Assembly: GCF_001714725.1 (NCBI RefSeq)
Contig: NZ_CP016447.1
Location: forward strand, 948,501-1,012,500
DNA length: 64,000 bases
Reading direction: 5' to 3'
Source: Acidovorax sp. RAC01
GTDB lineage: Bacteria > Pseudomonadota > Gammaproteobacteria > Burkholderiales > Burkholderiaceae_C
The position numbers and the translations under genes were made by a program. Below the pieces are notes generated by a model. The model was not told where the DNA came from and made no database searches. It worked only from the letters and a program-made list of their open reading frames with translations. Below, piece by piece: positions 9,213 through 44,833 of this stretch (position 1 is the stretch's first letter; every line of letters starts with the position of its first letter).

Positions 9213-10130
9213 TCAGGCTGCCCGGACATTCGCGCCTTCCACCTCGTCGCGCAGCAGCGCCACCATGGCCTGCGCCGCCAGCGACAGCGGCCGCCCGCGC
9301 AGCGTGATCAGGCCGATGGGCCGGTGCAGCACGGGCGCCTTCAGTGGCCGGGTGACCACTTCGGGCCGCTGCACCACCTGCGCGGCCAGCTCGGGCAGCG
9401 CGCTCACGCCCAGCCCTGCTGCCACCATGGCGGCGATGGTGGCCAGGTGCTCCACCTCGTAGCGGGGCGCAAAACGGATGCGGTGGGTCAGCAGGGCCTC
9501 CTGCGCGTACTGGCGCACGCTGGTGCCGGCGGGCATGGAGATGTGGGGCATCGCGGCCACATCGGCCCAGGCCACGGCGCTGCGCCCCCGGGCCAGCGGG
9601 TGCTGGCGGCCCATCAGCAGCACAAAGCGGTCAGACACCAGCGGGGTGTAGTCCAGATCGGCGTACGCCGGGTTGGCCGCCGTCAGGGCAAAGTCCACCC
9701 GGCCTGCGCGCACCATGTCAAACGCCGGGCCGGCCAGGCTGTCAAACAGCTCCAGCTGCACGCCCGGGTACTGGGCCGCAAAGCGGGCAAAGGCCCGCGG
9801 TACGGCGCCCGCTGCGAGCGATGGCAGCGCAGCCAGGGCAATGCGCCCCACCTGCAATTGCGCCACCTCCTGCACGCGGCGCACGGTTTCATCCATCTGG
9901 TGGCGCAAAAAGCGCGCCTGCTCGGCAAACACCTCGCCCGCCTGCGTGAGCTGCACCGTGCGCGTGGTGCGGTCAAACAGCCGTGCGCCCAGCATCTCCT
10001 CCAGCCGCGCCACGGTACCCGACACCGCCGACTGCGACAGGTGCATCTGCAGCGCAGTGCGCCGAAAGCTCAGCGTGTCTGCCAGTGACAGGAACACATC
10101 CACCTCGCGGGCAGACCAATTGATCTTCAT
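9213..10130 (-). CDS. LysR-type transcriptional regulator
   Basis: A 305-aa LTTR. The N-terminal winged helix-turn-helix covers about residues 1-60 (FLSLADTLSFRRTALQMHLS then QSAVSGTVARLEEMLGARLF), followed by a substrate-binding domain. It is divergent from the dehydrogenase-BKACE-Bug operon starting at 10231, so it very likely controls that operon. The 100-bp shared intergenic region contains CGAT-N6-ATCG at 10134-10147, a possible half-site pair. The inducer is unknown but is probably the substrate or an intermediate of the neighbouring pathway. Confidence 0.9.
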   Translation of the reverse strand: MKINWSAREVDVFLSLADTLSFRRTALQMHLSQSAVSGTVARLEEMLGARLFDRTTRTVQLTQAGEVFAEQARFLRHQMDETVRRVQEVAQLQVGRIALAALPSLAAGAVPRAFARFAAQYPGVQLELFDSLAGPAFDMVRAGRVDFALTAANPAYADLDYTPLVSDRFVLLMGRQHPLARGRSAVAWADVAAMPHISMPAGTSVRQYAQEALLTHRIRFAPRYEVEHLATIAAMVAAGLGVSALPELAAQVVQRPEVVTRPLKAPVLHRPIGLITLRGRPLSLAAQAMVALLRDEVEGANVRAA

Positions 10131-34595: not shown

Positions 34596-34900
34596 CAGCG
34601 CCACCGCTTCCCGCGGGCCTGCGGGGCAGCGTCTCCAGGCAGCTCTCCGTGACCAGGCTGCCCCGTTCCGGGCGGCCCCACCCTACTTGCGTCGGGTTGC
34701 CGCACCCCGAGGCTTGGCCAAAGATCAGCGCTTTGTCTGCACGCTCCGCACCGTGGCAGGGCGTGCACTGTCTCTGCCCTTTGGCCCTTTGGCCCTTTGC
34801 ACTGCACCCCATGAACCTGCATACCACCCCTGCTCTCGCGGCCGAAGCCGCGGCCTGCCGAGCCCCACACTTCCCAGCCCCCCGGCACGGGCGCAACCCG
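34596..34900. other. Intergenic stretch with a short CTTTGGCC tandem repeat
   Basis: About 300 bp between the HD-GYP and CsgG-like genes. Around 34779-34799 the sequence CCCTTTGG is repeated three times in tandem. An in-frame ATG at 34811 could add 30 residues to the next protein, but those residues do not look like a signal peptide. Confidence 0.45.
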
Positions 34901-35989
34901 ATGTCCGCCGCACAGCGGCCGCGCGTACCCGGCCGCATGGCTGCCGCTGCCGTGCTGGGTGTGGCCGCGCTGCTGGCGGGCTGTGAAACCACGAACATGC
35001 GCATGGGCAGTTCGGAAGCCAAGACGGTGGCCACGGGCAGCGCAGCCGGTGCGGCCAACGCCAATGCCAGCGATGCGCTGGAGCGCTGCGAGAGCCCGCT
35101 GGGCACCGTGTCGCTGATCGAAAACCAGCAGGCCGGCTGGTACACCATCCTGCGCGACCAGTACCGCCTGCCGCCCACCGCCAATTTGCTGCGCCTGCTG
35201 GTGCAGCAATCGAACTGCTTTGTGGTGGTGGAGCGCGGTGCCGCAGGCATGAACGCCATGACGCGCGAGCGCGCCCTGATGCAGTCGGGCGAGATGCGCC
35301 AGGGCAGCCAGTTTGGCCAGGGGCAGGTGGTGGCGTCCGACTATGGCCTGTCGCCCGAGATCGTGTTCCAGAACAACAACGCCGGGGGTGCCTCGGCATC
35401 GCTGGGCGGCCTGGTGGGCGGGCGCGCGGGCGGGCTGCTGGCCGTGATTGGCGGCAGCCTCAACACCAAGGAGGCAAGCGCGCTGCTCACGCTGATCGAC
35501 AACCGCTCGGGCGTGCAGGTGGCGGCCTCGGAAGGCAGCGCATCCAAAACCGACTTTGGCGCCATGGGCCAGCTGATGGGCGGCTCGGGCGGCGCGCGCA
35601 TGGGCGGCTACTCCAACACGGCCGAGGGCAAGGTCATTGCCGCGGCTTTCATGGATGCGTTCAACCAGATGGTGATATCCCTGCGCAACTACAAGGCGCA
35701 AACGGTCCGCGGCCAGGGTCTGGGCGGCGGCGGCCGACTGGGTGTGGACGGCGCTGCGCCGCCAGCGCAGACCTCAGCCCCCCGTGCAGCCACGGGCGCA
35801 CAGGCGGGCGTGGCCATGCCGCTGCGCGATGCACAGGCCCGGCTGAACGCGCTGGGCTACAACACCGGCACACCCGACGGCGCCATGGGCCAGCGCACGG
35901 CCGCCGCGCTGCGGGCATTCCAGAAGGACAAGGGCCTGCCCCAGAGCGGGCGGCTGGATACCGCGACCGCCGACGCGCTGGCGCAATGA
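34901..35989 (+). CDS. CsgG/HfaB-like lipoprotein with C-terminal peptidoglycan-binding domain
   Basis: A 362-aa outer-membrane-type lipoprotein: signal with lipobox LLAGC near residue 28, then a CsgG-type domain (LVQQSNCFVVVERGAAGMNA, GQVVASDYGLSPEIVF, KEASALLTLIDNRSGVQVAA). After a Gly/Ala/Pro linker there is a PG_binding_1 repeat (LRDAQARLNALGYNTGTPDG, MGQRTAAALRAFQKDKGLPQ). CsgG proteins form outer-membrane secretion pores for curli-like fibres, but no curli subunit genes are near. The start was chosen for the lipoprotein signal. Confidence 0.85.
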   Translation: MSAAQRPRVPGRMAAAAVLGVAALLAGCETTNMRMGSSEAKTVATGSAAGAANANASDALERCESPLGTVSLIENQQAGWYTILRDQYRLPPTANLLRLLVQQSNCFVVVERGAAGMNAMTRERALMQSGEMRQGSQFGQGQVVASDYGLSPEIVFQNNNAGGASASLGGLVGGRAGGLLAVIGGSLNTKEASALLTLIDNRSGVQVAASEGSASKTDFGAMGQLMGGSGGARMGGYSNTAEGKVIAAAFMDAFNQMVISLRNYKAQTVRGQGLGGGGRLGVDGAAPPAQTSAPRAATGAQAGVAMPLRDAQARLNALGYNTGTPDGAMGQRTAAALRAFQKDKGLPQSGRLDTATADALAQ

Positions 35990-36026: not shown

Positions 36027-37034
36027 GTGAAGGTTATCGAATGCACGCGCTACGGCACACCTGACGTCCTGCAATGGGCCGAACGCCCCATGCCCCGGCC
36101 TGGCAGCCACGAGTTGCTGGTACGCGTGGTGGCCACCACGGTCAACAGCGGCGACTGGCGCGTGCGCGCGCTGCATCTGCCGCCTGGCTTTGGCCCGCTG
36201 GGCAGGTTGGCGCTGGGCCTGCGCCGCCCCAGGCAGCCGGTGCTGGGCACCGAATTTTCGGGTGTGGTCGAAGACACGGGCGTGCTGGCCTGCCGCTTCA
36301 GGCCGGGCGACCGGGTGTTTGGCTTTACAGGGTCGCGCATGGGCTGTCATGCCCAATACCTTTGCATGGACGAACACGGCCCGGTGGCACCCACACCGCC
36401 CCAGCTCGGTTGCGAGCAGGCGGCTGCGCTGTGTTTTGGCGGCAGCACCATGCTGCACTTTCTGCGCCGCGCCCGCTTGGCCGCAGGCGAGAAGGTGCTG
36501 GTCATCGGTGCCAGCGGCACGGTAGGCTCGGCCGCAGTCCAACTTGCGCGCAGCCAGGGGGCCCGCGTGACCGCAGTGTGCAAAGCCGCCAATGCGCCGC
36601 TGATGCACCGGCTGGGTGCCCTTCACACCATCGACCCGGCGCGGCATGACTTCACGGCGCTGGGCGAACGTTACGACGTGGTGGTGGACTGCGTGGGCAC
36701 GTTTGCGCCCGAGGAAACCCTGGACATTCTGACCCCCGGTGGGCGCCTGCTGCTGCTGGCCGCCGGGCTGGCTGACCTGCTGCGCGCACCTTGGCTGGGC
36801 CGATCGCGCGGGCTGCGCGTGATCGCCGGGCCCGCACGGGAGCGCGCTGCCGATGTGGGTGAGCTGGCGGACCTGACAGCCCGCGGCGCGTTCGTGCCCG
36901 TCATTGACAGCGTGTACCCGTGGTCCGACTTCCGCCTGGCCCATGCCCGCGTGGAAAGTCGGCGCAAGGTGGGCACCGTTGTGCTGCGGGTATCCGGACA
37001 GACCAAGCAGCAGCCAGCCCCGATCCCGGCCTGA
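36027..37034 (+). CDS. Zinc-independent medium-chain dehydrogenase/quinone reductase family protein
   Basis: A 335-aa MDR-family oxidoreductase starting at GTG. VVATTVNSGDWRVRA is the family catalytic-domain motif, and the NADPH-binding site is VLVIGASGTVGSAAVQLARS. The zinc ligands of true alcohol dehydrogenases are lacking. The ending RFELAHARVESRRKVGTVVL-like pattern (here FRLAHARVESRRKVGTVVLR) is typical of quinone reductases. The physiological substrate is unknown. Confidence 0.87.
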   Translation: MKVIECTRYGTPDVLQWAERPMPRPGSHELLVRVVATTVNSGDWRVRALHLPPGFGPLGRLALGLRRPRQPVLGTEFSGVVEDTGVLACRFRPGDRVFGFTGSRMGCHAQYLCMDEHGPVAPTPPQLGCEQAAALCFGGSTMLHFLRRARLAAGEKVLVIGASGTVGSAAVQLARSQGARVTAVCKAANAPLMHRLGALHTIDPARHDFTALGERYDVVVDCVGTFAPEETLDILTPGGRLLLLAAGLADLLRAPWLGRSRGLRVIAGPARERAADVGELADLTARGAFVPVIDSVYPWSDFRLAHARVESRRKVGTVVLRVSGQTKQQPAPIPA

Positions 37035-37229: not shown

Positions 37230-38291
37230 TCAGTTCTGCGTGTAGCAGATCTTGTTGGGGATGATGGTGTTGGTGTAGCTCTCCACGCTGGCTGCCGTCG
37301 GGAACGCCGACGGGGTCTGGTCACCCAGGATGCACAGACGCGAGCCCGTGCGTGCCCACACTGCTCGCGATGTCAGGCCCGAGGGCTGCGTCCACAGGCC
37401 CCAGAAGGCCGTCAGTGTGGGTGTGCTGCCGTTGCGATCGAACACCACCGTGCCCACATCGCTCAAGGGCCCGGCCACCGTCCCCGCGCCCGAGCAGTTC
37501 GCGTCGCCGTAGATGGCTGCGCCAATCTGTGCGGTCACACGGGTATCGCTCTGGCGCGTGATGCGCCAGAGCGAGCGCCCCCACTGGCCCGGGCGCACCT
37601 GGCTGCAGAACTCCTGCTTCCAGTCGCCCTCGGGCAGCGCCACCACCGTGCCGCAATTCACCTCGACCGATCCCACGTTGGCGGCCGACACCGTGCCCGC
37701 GCCGTTGCGCACCGTACAGGCCTGCCCGGCTGGCTGCGTGCGCACGCTGACGGCATAGGCAGCGCCCCCGGCCAGCGGCGTGGCAAAGGTGAAACCGCCA
37801 TTGCTGGCGACCGCGAGGTCATCGCCGCCATTGTTTTGCAGCACCACGGTGCCGCCCACCAGGCCCGCCACCGAGCCACCCACGCTGAACGTGGCGGCGG
37901 GCAGGTTTTCGCAACGCACCTGCACGTCCGTCACATTGGCCGTGGCCTTGCCGCTGCCTTGCGCCACGGCGCAGCGCTGGCCGGCCGGCTGCGTCTTGAC
38001 CGTGACGGCATAGGCCACACCGCTGTCGAGCCGGGTGACGAAGACGAAGGAGCCGTTGGCATTTACCGACAGGTCGTCGCCCGCGTTGTTCTGCAGCGTC
38101 AGCGTCTTGCCGCTGCCCAGGCCGGCCACTGTACCGCCGATGGTGAAAGCGCCGACCGAGGGGGGTGGCGTGGTGCCATCGTCATCGCCGCCGCCGCAGC
38201 CTGCCAGCAAGACGGCAGCCACGGCCACCGGCGCCCAGCGAAAGGCAGGTCGGGCACAGCGCCCGCCGCCCCAAGCATCTGGATTGGTCAT
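37230..38291 (-). CDS. Repeat-domain lipoprotein A of unknown function
   Basis: A 353-aa predicted lipoprotein (lipobox LLAGC, lipidated Cys32, then GGGDDDG). Two repeats of about 80 residues follow; each begins (T/S)VGG-VAGL, has LQNN-GDDL, NG-F-F-T, a (Y)AV(T/S)V-TQPAGQ-C segment and ends VQVRC or VEVNC. A C-terminal domain of about 120 residues (PEGDWKQEFCSQ to PNKICYTQN) contains four cysteines and several tryptophans. I do not recognise that domain. It is paralogous to the gene at 38628 and divergent from a response-regulator remnant, with an ACCCT-N8-AGGGT palindrome between them. Confidence 0.8.
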   Translation of the reverse strand: MTNPDAWGGGRCARPAFRWAPVAVAAVLLAGCGGGDDDGTTPPPSVGAFTIGGTVAGLGSGKTLTLQNNAGDDLSVNANGSFVFVTRLDSGVAYAVTVKTQPAGQRCAVAQGSGKATANVTDVQVRCENLPAATFSVGGSVAGLVGGTVVLQNNGGDDLAVASNGGFTFATPLAGGAAYAVSVRTQPAGQACTVRNGAGTVSAANVGSVEVNCGTVVALPEGDWKQEFCSQVRPGQWGRSLWRITRQSDTRVTAQIGAAIYGDANCSGAGTVAGPLSDVGTVVFDRNGSTPTLTAFWGLWTQPSGLTSRAVWARTGSRLCILGDQTPSAFPTAASVESYTNTIIPNKICYTQN

Positions 38292-38346
38292 GAACAGAAC
38301 TCCGTATCTTGAAAAGGGGCGGATTCTGCGCCGCGCTCGCTGCAGC

Positions 38347-38374
38347 ACGTAACCCTACCGGGGCAGGGTTACGT
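38347..38374. promoter_or_regulatory. Palindromic operator candidate upstream of lipoprotein A and the regulator remnant
   Basis: A perfect 10-bp inverted repeat ACGTAACCCT/AGGGTTACGT is separated by 8 bp. Its core ACCCT-N8-AGGGT recurs upstream of the intact response regulator at 40173-40190. It lies between the divergent lipoprotein A gene and the regulator remnant, where an autoregulatory operator would be expected. Confidence 0.6.
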
Positions 38375-38454
38375 CTTTCCCACCGCGGGGCATACTTGGC
38401 GAGATTTGTCTTGTCCCAGATTCCGGGCCGCCAAGTCCCGTCACCGGTACCGCC

Positions 38455-38559
38455 ATGGCTTCGTACGCACTGATCATTGACGATCAACCGCTGGTCGCGC
38501 GCGGCGCGGCCCAGGGCCTGGGCGGCGGCGGCCGCCCGACGCATGTCCCGCGGCTTTAG
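38455..38559 (+). pseudogene. Truncated response-regulator remnant
   Basis: A 34-codon open frame, MASYALIIDDQPLVARGAAQ and then a glycine-rich end. Its first 18 residues match the N-terminus of the intact regulator at 40290 (MLPYALILDDHPLVAQGVAA), including the acidic pair of the receiver domain. Everything after the first helix, including the phosphorylation site and DNA-binding domain, is missing. With the neighbouring paralogous lipoprotein it indicates that a lipoprotein/regulator pair was duplicated and this regulator copy later lost. Confidence 0.75.
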
Positions 38560-38585
38560 CGAGCTCACCCAACCGCCCTGCACGG

Positions 38586-38610
38586 CCCGAAGGCGCATTG
38601 CGCCTTCGGG
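38586..38610. terminator. Hairpin between regulator remnant and lipoprotein B
   Basis: A perfect 11-bp stem CCCGAAGGCGC/GCGCCTTCGGG with a 3-nt loop, just beyond the stop codon of lipoprotein B. There is no T-tract, so termination is likely but not certain. Confidence 0.5.
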
Positions 38611-38627
38611 CTGAACGGCACCCTCCG

Positions 38628-39689
38628 TCAGTTCCGCGTGTAGCAGGTTTTGGATGGAATCGTGGCGTCGGTGTACTGCTCGACCTGAGCGGCCGTGGGC
38701 AGGGCCAGGCGCTCCTCGCCCCCCAGCAAGCAGAAGTAGCCGCCCTTGAGCGACCAGACCGTCCGCGTCGTGCGACCGGACGGCAATACCCACGGACCCC
38801 AAAAGGCTGTCAGGGTAGCCGTGCTGTCCCTCCGGTCATAGACGAACTGGCCGGCGTCAAAAAACAGGTCCTCGCGGGTCGTTCCGGCACCGGCGCAACT
38901 CGCATCCGTGAACGTGACCACACTCTGACGCACATTCACCCGGTCATCGCCTTGGCGAGTCAGCCGCCACAGTGATCGCGCCCACTGTCCGGTGCCGGCA
39001 GCGTTGCAGGCCTGCTGCTTCCAGTCGCCCTCGGGGAAGCCGGAAACCGCTGGATTGGAAGCACAACGCACGTCCACCGAGCTGACATGGGCGGTTCCCA
39101 CCGTGCCTGCACCATTGGCGACGGCACACTCCTGGCCGGTGGGCTGGGTTTTCACGGTCACGGCATAGCCCGTGCCGCTGGCCTGCGCGGTGGCAAAGCT
39201 GAAGCCTCCGTTGGCGGTGATAGCAAGGTCGCTGCGCCCATTGTTCTGCAGTACCAGTCCGGTGCCCGACAACCCCGAAACCGTTCCGCCCACGGTATAG
39301 GTGGCCGCAGGGAGATCGTCGCACCGCACCTGCACATCACGCACATTGGCCGTAGCGCGGCCCGCGCCCTGCGTTACGGTGCAGCGCTGACCGGGGGGCT
39401 GTGTCTTGACCGTGACCTCATAGGACACCCCATGGTCCAGCAGGGTGGGGAACGAAAAACTGCCGTTCGCACTGAGGGACAAATCGTTCGCAGCGTTGTT
39501 TTGCAGCGTGACAGAGCGACCTGCGGCCAGCCCGCTGAGCACGCCTCCAACAGAGTAAGCGCCCACGGTGGGCTCTTGGGATTCGTCGCCGCCGCCGCAG
39601 GCAGACAACAGGGAAACAGCCATCGCGACGGAGGCTAACTGCATCAGCACATGGCCCTCGCGGCGGTGCATCCGATATTCAGCGTTCAT
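38628..39689 (-). CDS. Repeat-domain lipoprotein B of unknown function
   Basis: A 353-aa predicted lipoprotein with the same architecture as lipoprotein A. Lipobox LLSAC (Cys31), a GGGDES spacer, two repeats (SVGGVLSGLAAGRSVTLQNN and TVGGTVSGLSGTGLVLQNNG, each ending in a VRC motif), then the cysteine- and tryptophan-containing C-domain from PEGDWKQQACN to PSKTCYTRN. The two mature proteins align end to end by eye. Start codon choice is uncertain (ATG at 39689 or 39671); neither has a strong ribosome site. It precedes, divergently, the response regulator and two hybrid kinases, and may be a sensor or output protein of that system. Confidence 0.8.
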   Translation of the reverse strand: MNAEYRMHRREGHVLMQLASVAMAVSLLSACGGGDESQEPTVGAYSVGGVLSGLAAGRSVTLQNNAANDLSLSANGSFSFPTLLDHGVSYEVTVKTQPPGQRCTVTQGAGRATANVRDVQVRCDDLPAATYTVGGTVSGLSGTGLVLQNNGRSDLAITANGGFSFATAQASGTGYAVTVKTQPTGQECAVANGAGTVGTAHVSSVDVRCASNPAVSGFPEGDWKQQACNAAGTGQWARSLWRLTRQGDDRVNVRQSVVTFTDASCAGAGTTREDLFFDAGQFVYDRRDSTATLTAFWGPWVLPSGRTTRTVWSLKGGYFCLLGGEERLALPTAAQVEQYTDATIPSKTCYTRN

Positions 39690-40289
39690 GGGACAGTTAC
39701 TTTCAAGTGGAAGGAGGGAAGTCAGATTCCACCCCGCGGGTGGGGAACGAGAATTCTGCGCAGCGGCATACGCCCCGCGAACCCCACCCACGTCGGGGAG
39801 CCGCATGAGCCAACGTTGCGCAAAGCACGCACCAGAGCGGCGGCAGTCACCCCCCCCTCGCCCCGGAGAACGTGGCGCTACCGGCGACCCCATAAATTGG
39901 GGGGATGGACGCAGGCAGTCGTGCCACTCGAGACCGATCCCGCCCAACAGGCGCCGACACCCCGAACGGGCCGCTGCACTTGGGGATGGGAACCCCCCAG
40001 GCATCTGCATGCTCTGTTCGGGCGATGTGCCACACGACGGCGTCATGGACGGAAATGCTCAGCCCTGGACAGCAAGTGCGCCATACGTGCTGCGGCCCGC
40101 GGAGGGCGAGAGGGACCCGGCAGACCCGCACCTTACCGACGTGATGCAGTCTTGGCTGGCCTGCGACCCACCACCCTCCTTTGGTAGGGTTTCCATCGCT
40201 CTATTTCCGCGTCACACTGGCACACTGCTGCGCCAGACCCGTAGCGCGGCGGTATTCGTCGCGCACGGGCAGTCCACTTGCGCGATCAC
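39690..40289. other. Long divergent intergenic region between lipoprotein B and the response regulator
   Basis: About 600 bp without a convincing gene. It contains a CCACCCCGCGGGTGGGG palindrome near 39737-39753, GC-rich sequence, and the ACCCT-N8-AGGGT element at 40173-40190. The corresponding region of the A copy is only 163 bp, so this region has expanded or the A copy has shrunk. Confidence 0.5.
40173..40190. promoter_or_regulatory. ACCCT-N8-AGGGT operator candidate upstream of the response regulator
   Basis: An inverted repeat with the same half-sites and spacing as the core of the palindrome at 38347-38374. It is about 100 bp upstream of the regulator start, a plausible position for LuxR-type activator binding. 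Confidence 0.5.
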
Positions 40290-40946
40290 ATGCTCCCGTA
40301 CGCACTCATCCTGGACGATCACCCGCTGGTAGCGCAGGGCGTTGCCGCCTTCGTGCGTGCACGACTTCCCTCTCTGGAGGTGGTCGTGGCCGCTCAGGCC
40401 GAAGCGGCCCGCGAGATCCTGGCATTGCGCGGCGCCCCCTCGATCGCACTGGTGGACTACTGGATTGCCCACGATACGACGCTGGACCTGGTGACCGACC
40501 TGCGCGCGCGCTTCCCGGCCACGCCTGTGGCCGTGATGAGCGGCGATGATGATCCGGCGGTGGTGGCGCAGGTGCGTGCAGCGGGAGCCCACGGCTTCAT
40601 CCACAAGCAAGAGCCGCCGGAGGTCGTGGCCCAGGCGGTCGAGGCTCTGCTGGGGGGCCTGGCCTGGTTTCAGCCACTTCCGCATCCCGCTTCGCCGGTA
40701 CGGTCGCGCGAGATTCCAGTGAGCCCCGCCGAACTGGGCCTTTCCACGCGGCAGGGTGAGATCCTCGCCCTGGTGCTTCAGGGCTTTCCCAACAAGCGGA
40801 TTGCCCGCGAGTACGACTTGTCGGAAAGTACCGTGAAAGAACACATGACCGCCATCCTGCAACGGCTGGGCGCCCGCACGCGGGTGGAAGTCATTACGCA
40901 GCTGCGCGGGCGCCGGCTGGTGCTGCCACCGGCGCCGGCCGACTGA
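40290..40946 (+). CDS. NarL/LuxR-type response regulator
   Basis: A 218-aa two-component response regulator. The receiver domain has the acidic pair in ALILDDHPLVAQG, the phosphoacceptor Asp56 in ALVDYW, and the switch Lys in GFIHKQEPPE. The C-terminal LuxR helix-turn-helix has LSTRQGEILALVLQGFPNKR and LSESTVKEHMTAILQRLGA. I use the ATG at 40290, which matches the remnant at 38455, rather than the upstream TTG. It is followed by two hybrid kinases that presumably phosphorylate it. Confidence 0.92.
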   Translation: MLPYALILDDHPLVAQGVAAFVRARLPSLEVVVAAQAEAAREILALRGAPSIALVDYWIAHDTTLDLVTDLRARFPATPVAVMSGDDDPAVVAQVRAAGAHGFIHKQEPPEVVAQAVEALLGGLAWFQPLPHPASPVRSREIPVSPAELGLSTRQGEILALVLQGFPNKRIAREYDLSESTVKEHMTAILQRLGARTRVEVITQLRGRRLVLPPAPAD

Positions 40947-41096
40947 AATGCCCGGGCAACCCTCGATGGGGCGCGCATTCCAGCCCTGGGCAGGCTCGTC
41001 CCGCGCATCGGGTGGATGGCCGGCCACGGCTCAGCCGGCACGCGCAGCAGGCCGGGCGCCAGGGGCGGTGCATTACGCTGCACGGGGCCTGCAGTG

Positions 41097-43031
41097 ATGG
41101 ACACCTCGTTCTGGCGCCGCTGGTTTCCGCGCCCGCTGGACGGCGGCGAACTGGGTGACCGCGGCCATGTGCGCATGCTGGAACTTACCCACCAGCGGCT
41201 GGTTTTGAGTATTTGCGCCATGCCGCTGCTGGGGGCGCCGCTGACCATGTGGTTCCAGGGCCTGGGGCGCAATCCGCTGGGGTTAGGTCTGTGGACGGCG
41301 CTGTACACGGTGGCTGCACTGGCCGTGTGGCAGCAGTCCCGCCGGCTGCGCCACAGCAGGGTGGCACCTCAGGGGCAGGACGACGCACAGTGGCTGGCGC
41401 AATGGCGGCCCCGTGTGCGGGCTACCAGCCTCATCCACGCACTGGGGCTGGCGGCGCTGGGCGCCATCGTGGTGGCCACGCCGGGCCGGGCGCACTACGA
41501 CTTCATCCTGCTGCTGCATGTGACTCTGGCCGTGGTGATCGTGGGCAACGCCACGTTCCAGCTTCCCTCGGTGGGCATGTTTTTGCGCATGTACGGGCTG
41601 GGCTGGGGCGTGGCTACCGTGGTGCTGCCGGTGGCGCTGATGCAATGGCCCTCGCTCATGCATGGGCCGGGCGATGCCGGGGGCGGCGCTGCGTCGCCCT
41701 GGCGCTTCATCATTCCCGTATCGCTGCTGCTGCTGATTGCGCTGTACCGCCACGCGGTGGTAGCGAACAATTTTTTTGTGCAGCAGGTACGGCTGGAGGA
41801 AGAAGGCCTGCACCTGGCCCGGCAGGCAAGCCTTGCGCATGAAAAAGCCGAGGCCGCGCTGGTGGACAAAAACCTGTTTCTGCGCACCGCCAGCCACGAC
41901 CTGCGCCAGCCGGTGCATGCCATGGGCTTTCAGATCGAGGCCATCCGCCAGCGCAACCAGGACCCGGCGCTCACGCCCGCGCTGGAAGACCTGCGGCGCA
42001 GCGTGCAATCGGTGCACCTCATGTTCAATGCGCTGCTGGACCTGTCGCGCATGGAGAACCGGGCGTTGCCCGAACGCCTGGTGCCAGTGGCATTGCCCCC
42101 CCTGCTGTGCGACATCGCGCAGCTGTTCCGCGAAGAAGCCGCGGGGCTGGGCCTGGCGCTCAGGGTGCGCGCGCCGACAGGGGGCGCCACGGTGCTGGCA
42201 GACCCTGTGCTGCTGCGACAGTCCCTGGTGAACCTGGTGCACAACGGCTTGCGCTACACCGGGCGCGGCGGCCTGCTGCTGGCAGCACGCCGGCGCGGCA
42301 CCGACTGGTGTATTGAGGTGTGGGACACCGGCCTGGGCGTGGCACCCGAGGACCACGCCCGCATCTACGAGCCCTTCTACCGCCCTGCGCATACGGCGCC
42401 CCTGCACCACGCCGGTCATGGCCTCGGGCTGGCTGTAGTGGCCCGCTGTGCCGAGCTGATGGGTGCGGCGCACGGCATGCGCTCGCGACCCGGGCGTGGC
42501 TCGTGCTTCTGGCTTCGGCTGACCGCAGCGCCAGACACGCTGCCGGACGATGCCACGGAGGCGATGGAGACCACGCCCTTCAGACCATTGGCCGGGCGTT
42601 GCCTGGTGGTGGATGACGACCCCCATGTGCTGCGCGCGTGGTCGTCGATGATGGCCAGCTGGGGCCTGGAGACCCGGACCGCCAGCGATGCAGCAGCGGC
42701 CCTGGCAGCACTGGACGCAGGCTTTGTGCCTGACGCGATCTTCTGCGACCAGCGCCTGCGCAGCGGCGACAGTGGTTTTGATGTGCTGCTCGCTTTGCTG
42801 GAGCGCTGCCCACGGGCGCGCGGGGCCATGGTGAGTGGCGAACGGGATGCGCCCGAACTGGCTGCGGCACAGGCGCAGGGCTATCTGGTGCTGAGCAAAC
42901 CGGTGGATGTTGTCACGCTGCACACCTTGCTGGTGCAGTGGCTGGCACTACAGCCAGAAGACCGGGCCATGGGAGCCGATCACGGGGGGACTGGTGGTAT
43001 CGCGGCGCACACCCGGAGTACGCCGGCATGA
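41097..43031 (+). CDS. Membrane hybrid histidine kinase 1
   Basis: A 644-aa sensor kinase. The N-terminal half has about six hydrophobic segments with short loops and no large periplasmic domain, so it probably senses something in or near the membrane. HisKA has TASHDLRQPVHAMGF (His267), the ATP-binding domain has LVNLVHNGLRYT, DTGLGVAPED and HGLGLAVVARC. A C-terminal receiver has CLVVDDDPHVLRAW and the phosphoacceptor Asp551 in IFCDQRL. The hybrid design suggests a relay, but no histidine phosphotransfer domain is visible. It overlaps kinase 2 by ATGA. Confidence 0.9.
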   Translation: MDTSFWRRWFPRPLDGGELGDRGHVRMLELTHQRLVLSICAMPLLGAPLTMWFQGLGRNPLGLGLWTALYTVAALAVWQQSRRLRHSRVAPQGQDDAQWLAQWRPRVRATSLIHALGLAALGAIVVATPGRAHYDFILLLHVTLAVVIVGNATFQLPSVGMFLRMYGLGWGVATVVLPVALMQWPSLMHGPGDAGGGAASPWRFIIPVSLLLLIALYRHAVVANNFFVQQVRLEEEGLHLARQASLAHEKAEAALVDKNLFLRTASHDLRQPVHAMGFQIEAIRQRNQDPALTPALEDLRRSVQSVHLMFNALLDLSRMENRALPERLVPVALPPLLCDIAQLFREEAAGLGLALRVRAPTGGATVLADPVLLRQSLVNLVHNGLRYTGRGGLLLAARRRGTDWCIEVWDTGLGVAPEDHARIYEPFYRPAHTAPLHHAGHGLGLAVVARCAELMGAAHGMRSRPGRGSCFWLRLTAAPDTLPDDATEAMETTPFRPLAGRCLVVDDDPHVLRAWSSMMASWGLETRTASDAAAALAALDAGFVPDAIFCDQRLRSGDSGFDVLLALLERCPRARGAMVSGERDAPELAAAQAQGYLVLSKPVDVVTLHTLLVQWLALQPEDRAMGADHGGTGGIAAHTRSTPA

Positions 43032-44833
43032 CACTGCCCGTCTCCGACCTCGCTTCAGACCCCCTGGCGAATGACACCCCCAGCGCCGCAGGACAGCTGC
43101 GCCTGCTGGAAGCATCGTTCGCGCGCCTGCGGCTGGGCATGTCTGCGATGCCCCTTACCGGCCTGATCTTCGGTGTGCTGATGAATGCACAGGATGGCCC
43201 GGGCGTCAGGATGTTCTGGTGGGGTGGCGCCTACGTGCTGGCGCTGTTGCTGGTCTGGTGGGGGCATCAACGGTATCGGCAGCAGCGAACCCACGAGCCT
43301 CCCGAGGTCATGCTGCGCATCTGGTACGGACGCGTGTGCTGGCTGGCGCTTGCACACGGCCTGGGCATGTCGCTGTCCGTGGCGCTGTCGCTCGATCACG
43401 CCCACTACGAATACATGTTGATGCTGCACGTGGCTCTGTTGGGTATCCTGACTGCCAACGCGGCACAGATGACCGCGGTGCTTCGGGTGTACCAGATGTT
43501 CATGGCGGGTGCAGTCAGCGGTTTGGTCGTGGGACCCTTCGCATTTCCCACCATATGGCCGTTCTTGTTCCCGATGACCCTGATCATGTCGTTCGTGATC
43601 TACCGCAGCGGCGTCAAAGCGCACGGCTTTCTGGTCCGGCAAGTTCTGCTCGAAGAGCGCAGCCGCGACCTGGCCGAACGTTACCGCGCTGCCAGCAGTG
43701 CTGCACTGGAGGCGCTGGCCGAGAAAAACCACTTCCTGGGTGCGGCTGCGCACGACCTGCGCCAGCCTGTCCACGCCATGGCCCTCTTGGCCGAAGCCAT
43801 TGCACTGCACGGCCAGCATGTTGCCGGGCTGGCCCCGCTGCTGCAGCAATGGCGCCAGAGCATGCGCTCCGTGAACCACATGTTCAATACGCTGCTCGAC
43901 CTGTCGCGCATCGAGTCGGGCACCATGAAGGCGCGACCCACAACCGTTTCCATTGCGCAGCTACTGGACGAAGTGGGCCTGCAGTTTGGCGAGGATGCGC
44001 GAGCCCGTGGGCTGGTGCTGCGGCTGCGCCCTGCGCCACCCGAGGCCCTGCTCTGGACCGACCCGGCCCTGGTGCGGCAGGCGCTGTTCAACCTGGTGCA
44101 CAACGCCTTGCGCTACACACCCCACGGCGGCGTGCTGGTGGCGGCGCGCCGGCGGGCGGGTCGCTGGCGCATCGGGGTCTGGGACACCGGCACCGGGATG
44201 GCCGAACAGGAACAGACACGCATTTTTGAGGCCTTCTACCGCGGCGCGGGCGCCCATGCCGCAGTGCCCGGTGGCCACGGGCTGGGCCTGGCCGTGGTGG
44301 CGCGGTGCGTGGCGCTCATGGATGCCCGACAGGGCGTGCGTTCACACCCCGGCCGCGGCTCGTACTTCTGGCTTGAACTGCCTGCGGCCACGGCCAAGCA
44401 GGCCACGTCGGTCCCCTCTTGCACCTATCAGACACCCCCGCCTTCACCGCGCCTGCGCGGAAATTGCCTGGTCGTCGACGATGAGCCCCAGGTCCTGCAG
44501 GCTTGGTCAGCCCTGCTCGGCAGCTGGGGGCTGCATCTGCGCACCGCCACCGGTTTGCAACAGGCATGGGCGCAACTGGACGCCGGGTTCGTGCCGGACG
44601 TGATCCTGTGCGACGAGCACCTGGGCCATGGCGAGCGCGGTTTCGCCGTTTTGCAGGCGCTGCTCGAGCGCTGCCCCGCAGCGCGCGGTGCGATGGTCAG
44701 CGGTGAATTCGACACACCCTCCCTGCAGGACGCGCTGGGCGAGGGCTATCTGGTACTGCACAAGCCGGTAGACCCGGAAACCCTGCACGACATGCTCAGC
44801 CGCTGGCTGGATGGCAATCAAAATGCCACTTAG
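43028..44833 (+). CDS. Membrane hybrid histidine kinase 2
   Basis: A 601-aa paralogue of kinase 1 with the same layout: several N-terminal membrane segments, HisKA with AAAHDLRQPVHAMAL (His242), HATPase with LFNLVHNALRYT, DTGTGMAEQEQ and HGLGLAVVARC, and a receiver with CLVVDDEPQVLQAW and Asp529 in ILCDEHL. The start overlaps the stop of kinase 1, so the two are made together, possibly as a heterodimer. Sequence divergence is greatest in the membrane part, suggesting different signals or partners. Confidence 0.9.
   Translation: MTLPVSDLASDPLANDTPSAAGQLRLLEASFARLRLGMSAMPLTGLIFGVLMNAQDGPGVRMFWWGGAYVLALLLVWWGHQRYRQQRTHEPPEVMLRIWYGRVCWLALAHGLGMSLSVALSLDHAHYEYMLMLHVALLGILTANAAQMTAVLRVYQMFMAGAVSGLVVGPFAFPTIWPFLFPMTLIMSFVIYRSGVKAHGFLVRQVLLEERSRDLAERYRAASSAALEALAEKNHFLGAAAHDLRQPVHAMALLAEAIALHGQHVAGLAPLLQQWRQSMRSVNHMFNTLLDLSRIESGTMKARPTTVSIAQLLDEVGLQFGEDARARGLVLRLRPAPPEALLWTDPALVRQALFNLVHNALRYTPHGGVLVAARRRAGRWRIGVWDTGTGMAEQEQTRIFEAFYRGAGAHAAVPGGHGLGLAVVARCVALMDARQGVRSHPGRGSYFWLELPAATAKQATSVPSCTYQTPPPSPRLRGNCLVVDDEPQVLQAWSALLGSWGLHLRTATGLQQAWAQLDAGFVPDVILCDEHLGHGERGFAVLQALLERCPAARGAMVSGEFDTPSLQDALGEGYLVLHKPVDPETLHDMLSRWLDGNQNAT

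Follow-up and report, generated by a model that had tools for sequence, protein, structure and literature searches.

The 64,000-nt stretch of Acidovorax sp. RAC01 DNA analyzed here (the window, numbered from its first nucleotide) carries a response regulator gene (RR), two hybrid histidine kinase genes (HK1 and HK2) and two lipoprotein genes (LP1 and LP2), interspersed with copies of a palindrome. Comparison with related genomes makes it probable that they belong to an autoregulated two-component system (TCS) controlling neighboring surface-lipoprotein genes, and that recombination with a divergent relative has reshaped the locus. In the mechanism that we propose, HK1 and HK2 would respond in the membrane to an envelope cue by autophosphorylation and would then phosphorylate RR, likely by direct transfer, by analogy with the CrbS/R system. 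An RR dimer would bind the sequence ACCCTAC-N4-GTAGGGT, as conservation and symmetry suggest, and would control, positively or negatively, three local promoters: those of LP1, of a CsgG-like peptidoglycan-binding lipoprotein and of RR-HK1-HK2.

Between 34.6 and 44.8 kb, the CsgG-like gene is followed by an alcohol dehydrogenase gene, LP1, a 34-codon open reading frame (ORF), LP2, RR, HK1 and HK2. The features are as follows (site scores refer to the 14 scored positions of the palindrome; sites have no strand):

34680..34697: operator-like site ACCCTACTTGCGTCGGGT, 13/14 match, 5′ of the CsgG-like gene
34901..35989, + strand: CsgG-like lipoprotein with a C-terminal peptidoglycan-binding domain; ORF 34649-35989, start by reading at 34901 or 34811
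36027-37034: alcohol dehydrogenase gene, between the CsgG-like gene and LP1
37230..38291, − strand: LP1 lipoprotein, 353 aa; two DUF4369-like repeats and an uncatalogued 4-Cys C-terminal domain
38352..38369: putative operator ACCCTACCGGGGCAGGGT, 13/14, 60 nt 5′ of the LP1 ATG, common to LP1 and the RR remnant
38455..38559, + strand: remnant of the native RR; 34-codon ORF with about the first 23 RR codons, then unrelated sequence up to the stop
38628..39689, − strand: LP2 lipoprotein, 353 aa, of a clade that differs from that of LP1
39781..39798: degenerate operator-like sequence, 11/14, 91 nt 5′ of LP2; may be a chance match (the 64-kb window has three at this level)
40173..40190: putative operator ACCCTCCTTTGGTAGGGT, 13/14, 99 nt 5′ of the RR ATG
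40290..40946, + strand: RR, response regulator of the NarL/LuxR type; looks mosaic, with codons 1-165 divergent and 166-218 close to native
about 41097..43031, + strand: HK1 hybrid histidine kinase, HisKA-HATPase-REC, N-terminal membrane region with about six hydrophobic segments
43028..44833, + strand: HK2, another hybrid kinase, its start overlapping HK1 by ATGA; sensor region divergent, core conserved

Queries with LP1 corresponded to 37230-38288, with the first Met left off; the ORF places the LP1 ATG at 38291. Most of this layout had been described in the original prediction, made from the window sequence alone: two paralogous minus-strand lipoproteins, a truncated regulator start of 34 codons at 38455, an intact regulator at 40290 and, after the latter, two overlapping membrane hybrid kinases. 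All these genes are present, LP1 and LP2 being 56–57% identical and the HK2 start falling inside the HK1 stop (ATGA). A palindrome does precede both regulator starts, as had been claimed, but not with the identical spacing attributed to it, the distance from motif start to ATG being 103 nt for the remnant and 117 nt for RR.

RR matches the Pfam domains Response_reg (51.1 bits, cut-off 30.2) and GerE (56.7 bits, cut-off 23.5), which makes it a regulator of the NarL/FixJ type, and its residues D10, D56 and K106 are conserved in all seven sequences aligned. HK1 and HK2 each score above the Pfam cut-offs for HisKA, HATPase and REC and are thus hybrid histidine kinases; residues H267, D507, D551 and K601 are invariant in 16 of 16 kinases, which had been selected for the alignment. 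Hydropathy places about six membrane segments, separated by short loops, in HK1, and shows a similar, if less clear-cut, pattern in HK2. The DUF4369-like repeats of LP1 reach 23.4 bits against a Pfam cut-off of 25, those of LP2 being weaker. The C-terminal domain of both lipoproteins, of about 140 residues, has four Cys that are invariant in 10 of 10 aligned members; none of the ten has a Pfam match at E ≤ 1, and a comparison with the PDB gave nothing convincing (best E 0.15), so that the description of these proteins as of unknown family holds for this domain. Four genomes of the genus (G263, G266, G270 and G291) show an expansion of this 4-Cys domain, with 6–9 copies per genome. Some short LP forms and the RR locus of Thiobacillus (L041 7970-9156, L098, L220 and L245) have look-alike neighbors, namely a lipoprotein that resembles alpha/beta hydrolases, and small lipoproteins (Pfam was run on L041 only).

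Putative operator sites in strain RAC01 and in its genus

The palindrome ACCCT-N8-AGGGT occurs exactly in the window at 38352 and 40173, together with two further sites with one mismatch. When up to one mismatch is allowed, shuffled windows average 1.06 sites, and 3 of 100 shuffles have four or more. Comparison extends the motif to ACCCTAC-N4-GTAGGGT (14 scored positions), and the whole 4.57-Mb genome holds three sites that depart from it at no more than one position (34680, 38352 and 40173). All three lie inside 5.5 kb, 5′ of the CsgG-like lipoprotein gene, LP1 and RR, respectively. The first of these had been overlooked in the original prediction, whose gene set left out the CsgG-like gene with the same operator. 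A third exact ACCCT-N8-AGGGT in the genome (position 1299067) was dropped; by reading it matches the full consensus at 11/14.

We compared 47 genomes of the genus. RR is present in 25 of them and the LP C-terminal domain in 31; all 25 genomes with RR also have LP, six have LP only and 16 have neither (Fisher 5e-8, kinship ignored). LP lies at most 3 kb from RR in 22 of the 25; in G260 they are 8–9 kb apart, and in G266 and G291 they are on separate contigs. Exact operators follow the same distribution: 26 sites were found in 24 of the 25 genomes with RR and none in the 22 genomes without it (Fisher 1.6e-12, again ignoring kinship), the reversed control pattern giving a single site in the 47 genomes. 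By their coordinates, 24 of the 26 sites are at RR or LP promoters, and in G260 the separated LP and RR each keep an exact site of their own. The two remaining exact sites (L276 6845-6862 in G263 and L277 6682-6699 in G266) are both 5′ of the same conserved exported protein, which is DUF6923-like, below the Pfam cut-off, and is a possible further regulon member.

The position of the site relative to LP is nearly fixed, since it ends 60–64 nt 5′ of the LP ATG in 17 of the 20 genus genomes measured; the exceptions are G085 (76 nt) and G264 and G265 (102 or 126 nt, the start being uncertain). For this measurement, distances in G000 and G271 were taken from coordinates (G271: 62 nt, ATG at L205 9167), and G263, G270 and G285 were left out. 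The distance from the site to RR varies more than that to LP. No exact site was found in the LP regions fetched from the six genomes with LP and without RR (L217, L221 and L244-L247), nor in ten regions with extra LP copies from genomes with RR (L220, L248-L253 and L256-L258). One of the checks proposed with the original prediction was whether LP homologues mostly occur without two-component genes; in the genus the opposite is the case, LP going with RR in 25 of 31 genomes. The suggestion of a self-contained signaling module is thus supported by the shared operator and by this co-occurrence.

The CsgG-like gene would have the third promoter of the set. Its product reaches 22.8–23.2 bits for Pfam CsgG, marginally above the gathering cut-off of 20.8, and 60 bits for PG_binding_1; no solved CsgG was matched by sequence. 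Orthologues (about 70% identity or more) occur in 16 of the 47 genomes, 14 of them with RR, and all 14 orthologues in RR-bearing genomes, the window copy included, are preceded by a site matching at 11–13 of 14 positions. The best site reaches only 8/14 before the two orthologues from genomes without RR, and at most 9/14 before nine paralogues. This control suggests that the site is not a general feature of such promoters.

Regulator, putative operator and partner genes among relatives

Contigs were scanned with RR and the best 80 loci listed; 46 of them (L073-L118) were used, and 34 with remote regulators were left out. Relatives of RR thus occupy at least 46 loci, with 36–73% identity, across Beta- and Gammaproteobacteria; those listed include Acidovorax, Paracidovorax, Ramlibacter, Polaromonas, Roseateles, Alcanivorax, Methylomonas, Stenotrophomonas, Serratia and Enterobacter. 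A hybrid kinase resembling HK1 or HK2 (>100 bits) is found in 44 of the 46 loci, and none in L088 and L091. Plasmids searched for RR relatives at E 1e-30 yielded none, and blastn of E. coli genomes gave nothing resembling the Enterobacter locus.

For the upstream regions, 69 rows were analyzed (the 46 listed loci and 23 genus rows, at least eight genomes being present twice). Within 250 bp 5′ of RR, 54 of the 69 rows have a palindrome matching at 12/14 or better, and 33 at 14/14; shuffled upstream sequence reaches 12/14 in 0.07%. The rows at or above that score include 32 of the 46 listed loci, Serratia and Enterobacter among them, and 22 of the 23 genus rows, and they number 46 of 61 when duplicate genomes are removed. 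Two of the loci below 12/14 in the scan, L205 and L081, have an exact site just beyond the 250 bp scanned. Symmetric changes occur in the variant sites of L085, L105 and L087, and position 5 is changed on both sides in four of the 62 rows counted.

In a draw of 250 genomes of the family, a strong LP domain was found in 12 genomes, a weak one in two and RR in 21. RR adjoins LP in six of the 12 genomes with a strong LP match and, outside the genus, in three of nine; of the 18 non-genus genomes with RR, three have a strong LP match and one more a weak one. Because RR and LP overlap only partially in this draw, LP is a partner of RR in the genus and in a few relatives, not everywhere RR occurs; the proposed co-occurrence of the lipoprotein domain with the two-component genes is therefore strong within the genus (25 of 31) and weaker beyond it. 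Nine of the draw's 22 RR loci, including three of three in the genus, have sites at 12/14 or better. Exact sites were found in seven of the 250 genomes, against one for the reversed control. In the family genome G135, LP has an exact site, and the nearest RR relative (E 2.6e-25) is about 2 kb away. That regulator (L039 6904-7539) is of the LuxR type without a recognizable receiver, and may be a phosphorylation-independent relative of RR. In another genus, G029, G155 and G237 each have one exact palindrome, with no RR or LP match within about 20 kb, and these palindromes were taken as unrelated; that of G029 (L053 9916-9933), the one whose context was read, adjoins grpE-dnaK, 5′ of grpE.

Elsewhere, other surface proteins stand beside RR. 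A 104-aa lipoprotein is present in 10 of the 11 listed Enterobacterales loci (not in L101), alongside a protein of about 1000 aa, which in L102 and L110, the two tested, has an autotransporter domain; the autotransporter-type protein of the Serratia locus (L102 6148-9264) contains a long GGNPGE tandem repeat. A different lipoprotein family is found in Comamonas testosteroni (L107), Paracidovorax wautersii (L080) and an uncultured Acidovorax (L083), and further neighbors are an Ig-like lipoprotein (L081), a BNR-like lipoprotein (L086) and a PEP-CTERM protein (L090). The sensor is also variable: in seven genus loci (L033, L202, L203, L206, L207, L216 and L219) the kinase core is kept with an N-terminus unrelated to those of HK1 and HK2. 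These N-termini are mutually alike, and the one tested (L203) is TPR by Pfam. The LP C-terminal domains of the same loci are still 63–81% identical to the best-matching reference. As partner proteins and kinase sensor vary and LP remains similar across the sensor swap, LP is more likely an output of the system than its sensor. The RR-operator-kinase core would then be kept in the genus and be recognizable in many relatives, the adjoining surface protein and the kinase sensor being exchangeable.

Several results weigh against a common operator-based system of this kind. The number of sites in the RAC01 genome (three) is no excess over the reversed control pattern (12), so that it is their clustering that counts, and LP2 lacks a good site at the usual position. 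Fifteen of the 69 upstream rows are below 12/14; in the family draw, no more than 6 of 19 RR loci from outside the genus reach that score, and an exact site at RR was found in one of the 18 non-genus genomes with RR (G035). One-sided changes of the palindrome are commoner than symmetric ones (C/T at position 6 in 14 and A/A at position 1 in nine of 62 rows). Several of the 22 genus genomes without RR are incomplete (72–95%); these include G256, which has one of the two CsgG-like orthologues of that group, and one of these two orthologues comes from a 75%-complete genome. Finally, four loci (L093, L094, L116 and L117) have no evident lipoprotein beside RR, on crude gene calls.

Two other explanations of these data concern the palindrome and the lipoprotein. 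The palindrome could act as an RNA hairpin, either an attenuator or an RNA-binding site, rather than as a DNA operator, since its 7-bp stem and 4-nt loop could form in RNA and a similar site lies 5′ of grpE in another genus. We consider this very unlikely: the palindrome sits between divergent starts and is common to both genes, its presence tracks RR (24 of 25 against 0 of 22 genus genomes), its distance to LP is nearly fixed, and a terminator scan of 38230-40320 gave nothing at the palindromes. LP could, on the other hand, be an input, that is, an outer-membrane or periplasmic accessory modulating the kinase in the manner of QseG-QseE or RcsF, with the operator serving feedback. Its proximity to RR in 22 of the 25 genomes fits this view, kinase accessory lipoproteins exist (QseG-QseE), and the periplasmic Reg1 protein is proposed to act in this way (PMC7618870). 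This is nevertheless unlikely, as the membrane segments of HK1, and less clearly those of HK2, are joined by short loops, an unrelated domain replaces the sensor in seven loci while LP stays similar, distant taxa carry unrelated lipoproteins in the same place, and the operator is common to the CsgG-like gene as well. An operator bound by RR at the promoters of its target lipoproteins remains the reading that we prefer.

Origin of the arrangement in the window

The 34-codon ORF at 38455 resembles the start of the window RR with a local score of 55, the best of 2000 single-base shuffles reaching 35, and the similarity to the regulator that the original prediction assumed is thus significant. Because the remnant and its leader match the RR start of G271, the closest relative fetched, at 83% over 102 nt (E 8e-25), the ORF is identified by sequence as the beginning of the native RR, and the remnant belongs with LP1 and that native gene. 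That it might instead be a functional leader peptide is suggested by its open frame and preserved start codon, but is extremely unlikely, as in these comparisons the similarity to RR breaks off near codon 23 and is followed by an unrelated tail.

LP1 with its promoter has 87% DNA identity to G271, and LP1 and HK1 have about 90% protein identity, compared with 63–72% for RR codons 1-165. Fourfold sites give the same picture, those common with G271 being 38 of 79 in RR codons 1-165, 21 of 25 in codons 166-218 and 266 of 362 in HK1. In HK2 the sensor is 34–62% identical to that of G271, depending on the stretch, and the core up to 94%. At the corresponding position, G271 has nothing that matches LP2 and its upstream region. 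In a tree of 57 LP rows, LP1 groups with G271, and LP2 with Paracidovorax sp. MALMAid1276 (P0004) and P0005; an approximately unbiased (AU) test on 25 of the 57 rows rejected a tree in which LP1, LP2 and their nearest kin are held together (p-AU 5e-83). LP1 and LP2 thus have separate ancestry, and a recent duplication within the lineage is ruled out by the trees and the AU test. The LP-RR intergenic region of G271 (L205 about 9293-9450) contains an inverted-repeat insertion, resembling a miniature inverted-repeat transposable element, which places the operator 263 bp from RR.

Taking into account the separate ancestry of LP1 and LP2 and the mosaic pattern of RR, we infer that recombination brought a divergent LP2-RR segment into the native RR. 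Such an event would have cut the native RR to about 23 codons and introduced LP2 with its upstream region, along with about 165 divergent RR codons, native sequence resuming near the RR 3′ end and continuing into HK1. Some points temper this account: the synonymous contrast (p 0.002) rests on 79 and 25 sites, the AU group was chosen after the first tree, and REC domains in general diverge faster than HTH domains. A close donor was not found either, the RR of MALMAid1276 being 67% identical; the nearest non-identical RR is a metagenome fragment (P0133) with 83% identity over 79%.

The original prediction had a lipoprotein and a regulator duplicated together, with loss of one regulator; the LP trees, the AU test and the RR mosaic speak against this half of its interpretation, the signaling module being the half that stands. 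An older duplication deserves separate consideration. An ancestor could have had both LP1-RR and LP2-RR, each relative having lost one pair and the window having kept both lipoproteins and one full RR. The paralogous form of LP1 and LP2 and the tandem LP copies seen elsewhere (G272) are in its favor. We regard it as rather improbable, given that each of the 25 genus genomes with RR has a single RR match at E ≤ 1e-35, that the LP2 tree and the RR mosaic fit import, and that the identity to G271 falls from about 90% in LP1 and HK1 to 63–72% in RR codons 1-165. Recombination with a divergent relative is the origin that we favor.

Significance and comparison with known systems

With these results, a TCS gains a candidate operator and a predicted three-promoter regulon, and is linked both to the CsgG-like lipoprotein and to the uncatalogued 4-Cys domain of LP1 and LP2. 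The window also provides a natural example of the exchange of receivers and sensors, with native halves of a signaling pair lying next to apparently imported ones. More tentatively, and with somewhat less than even confidence, the locus may exemplify an undescribed regulatory socket, a core of RR, operator and hybrid kinases distributed across Beta- and Gammaproteobacteria, into which surface proteins and sensors are plugged by recombination. If so, each lineage would switch its own surface display through the same DNA sign, the plug-ins being two-repeat lipoproteins, the CsgG-like lipoprotein, the small lipoprotein with an autotransporter, and others.

No description of the RR/HK1/HK2 system was found in the open-access literature searched. 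The acetate TCS CrbS/CrbR (MxtR/ErdR) is similar in combining a HisKA-HATPase-REC hybrid kinase with a LuxR-type RR, and, as in that system, no HPt domain was detected by Pfam in the window proteins tested. In NCBIfam, RR scores best against ErdR, but with 96.2 bits against a cut-off of 390, so that it falls outside that family. CrbS differs in its SLC5 symporter sensor, neither HK1 nor HK2 matching a symporter domain of Pfam at E ≤ 0.1, and the neighbors of the window system are surface lipoproteins. In CrbS/R, acsA transcription does not require the kinase receiver, and the favored model is direct transfer from His to the RR (PMC5436829). The cores of HK1 and HK2 match best the NahK/ErcS hybrid kinases (NCBIfam NF041832), with scores of 206.9 and 254.4 bits that stay below the cut-off of 400 and place them outside this family.

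In Serratia, the EepS-EepR or Reg1-Reg2-BetR system is described as encoding together a possible periplasmic protein, a membrane kinase and an RR, as being autoregulated, and as having an RR assigned to the BetR family (PMC7618870). We compared it by description, not by sequence, and set it aside as the same system, the BetR domain not being among the 11 Pfam families that match RR at E ≤ 0.1. The Serratia relatives of RR (L102 and L115) lie beside an autotransporter-type gene. QseG-QseE and RcsF-Rcs likewise link a lipoprotein with a TCS, but the evidence from the window points to the lipoprotein as a target gene. Lastly, the CsgG-like neighbor shares with the CsgG/HfaB family a CsgG domain just over the Pfam cut-off, and differs from it in bearing a peptidoglycan-binding domain.

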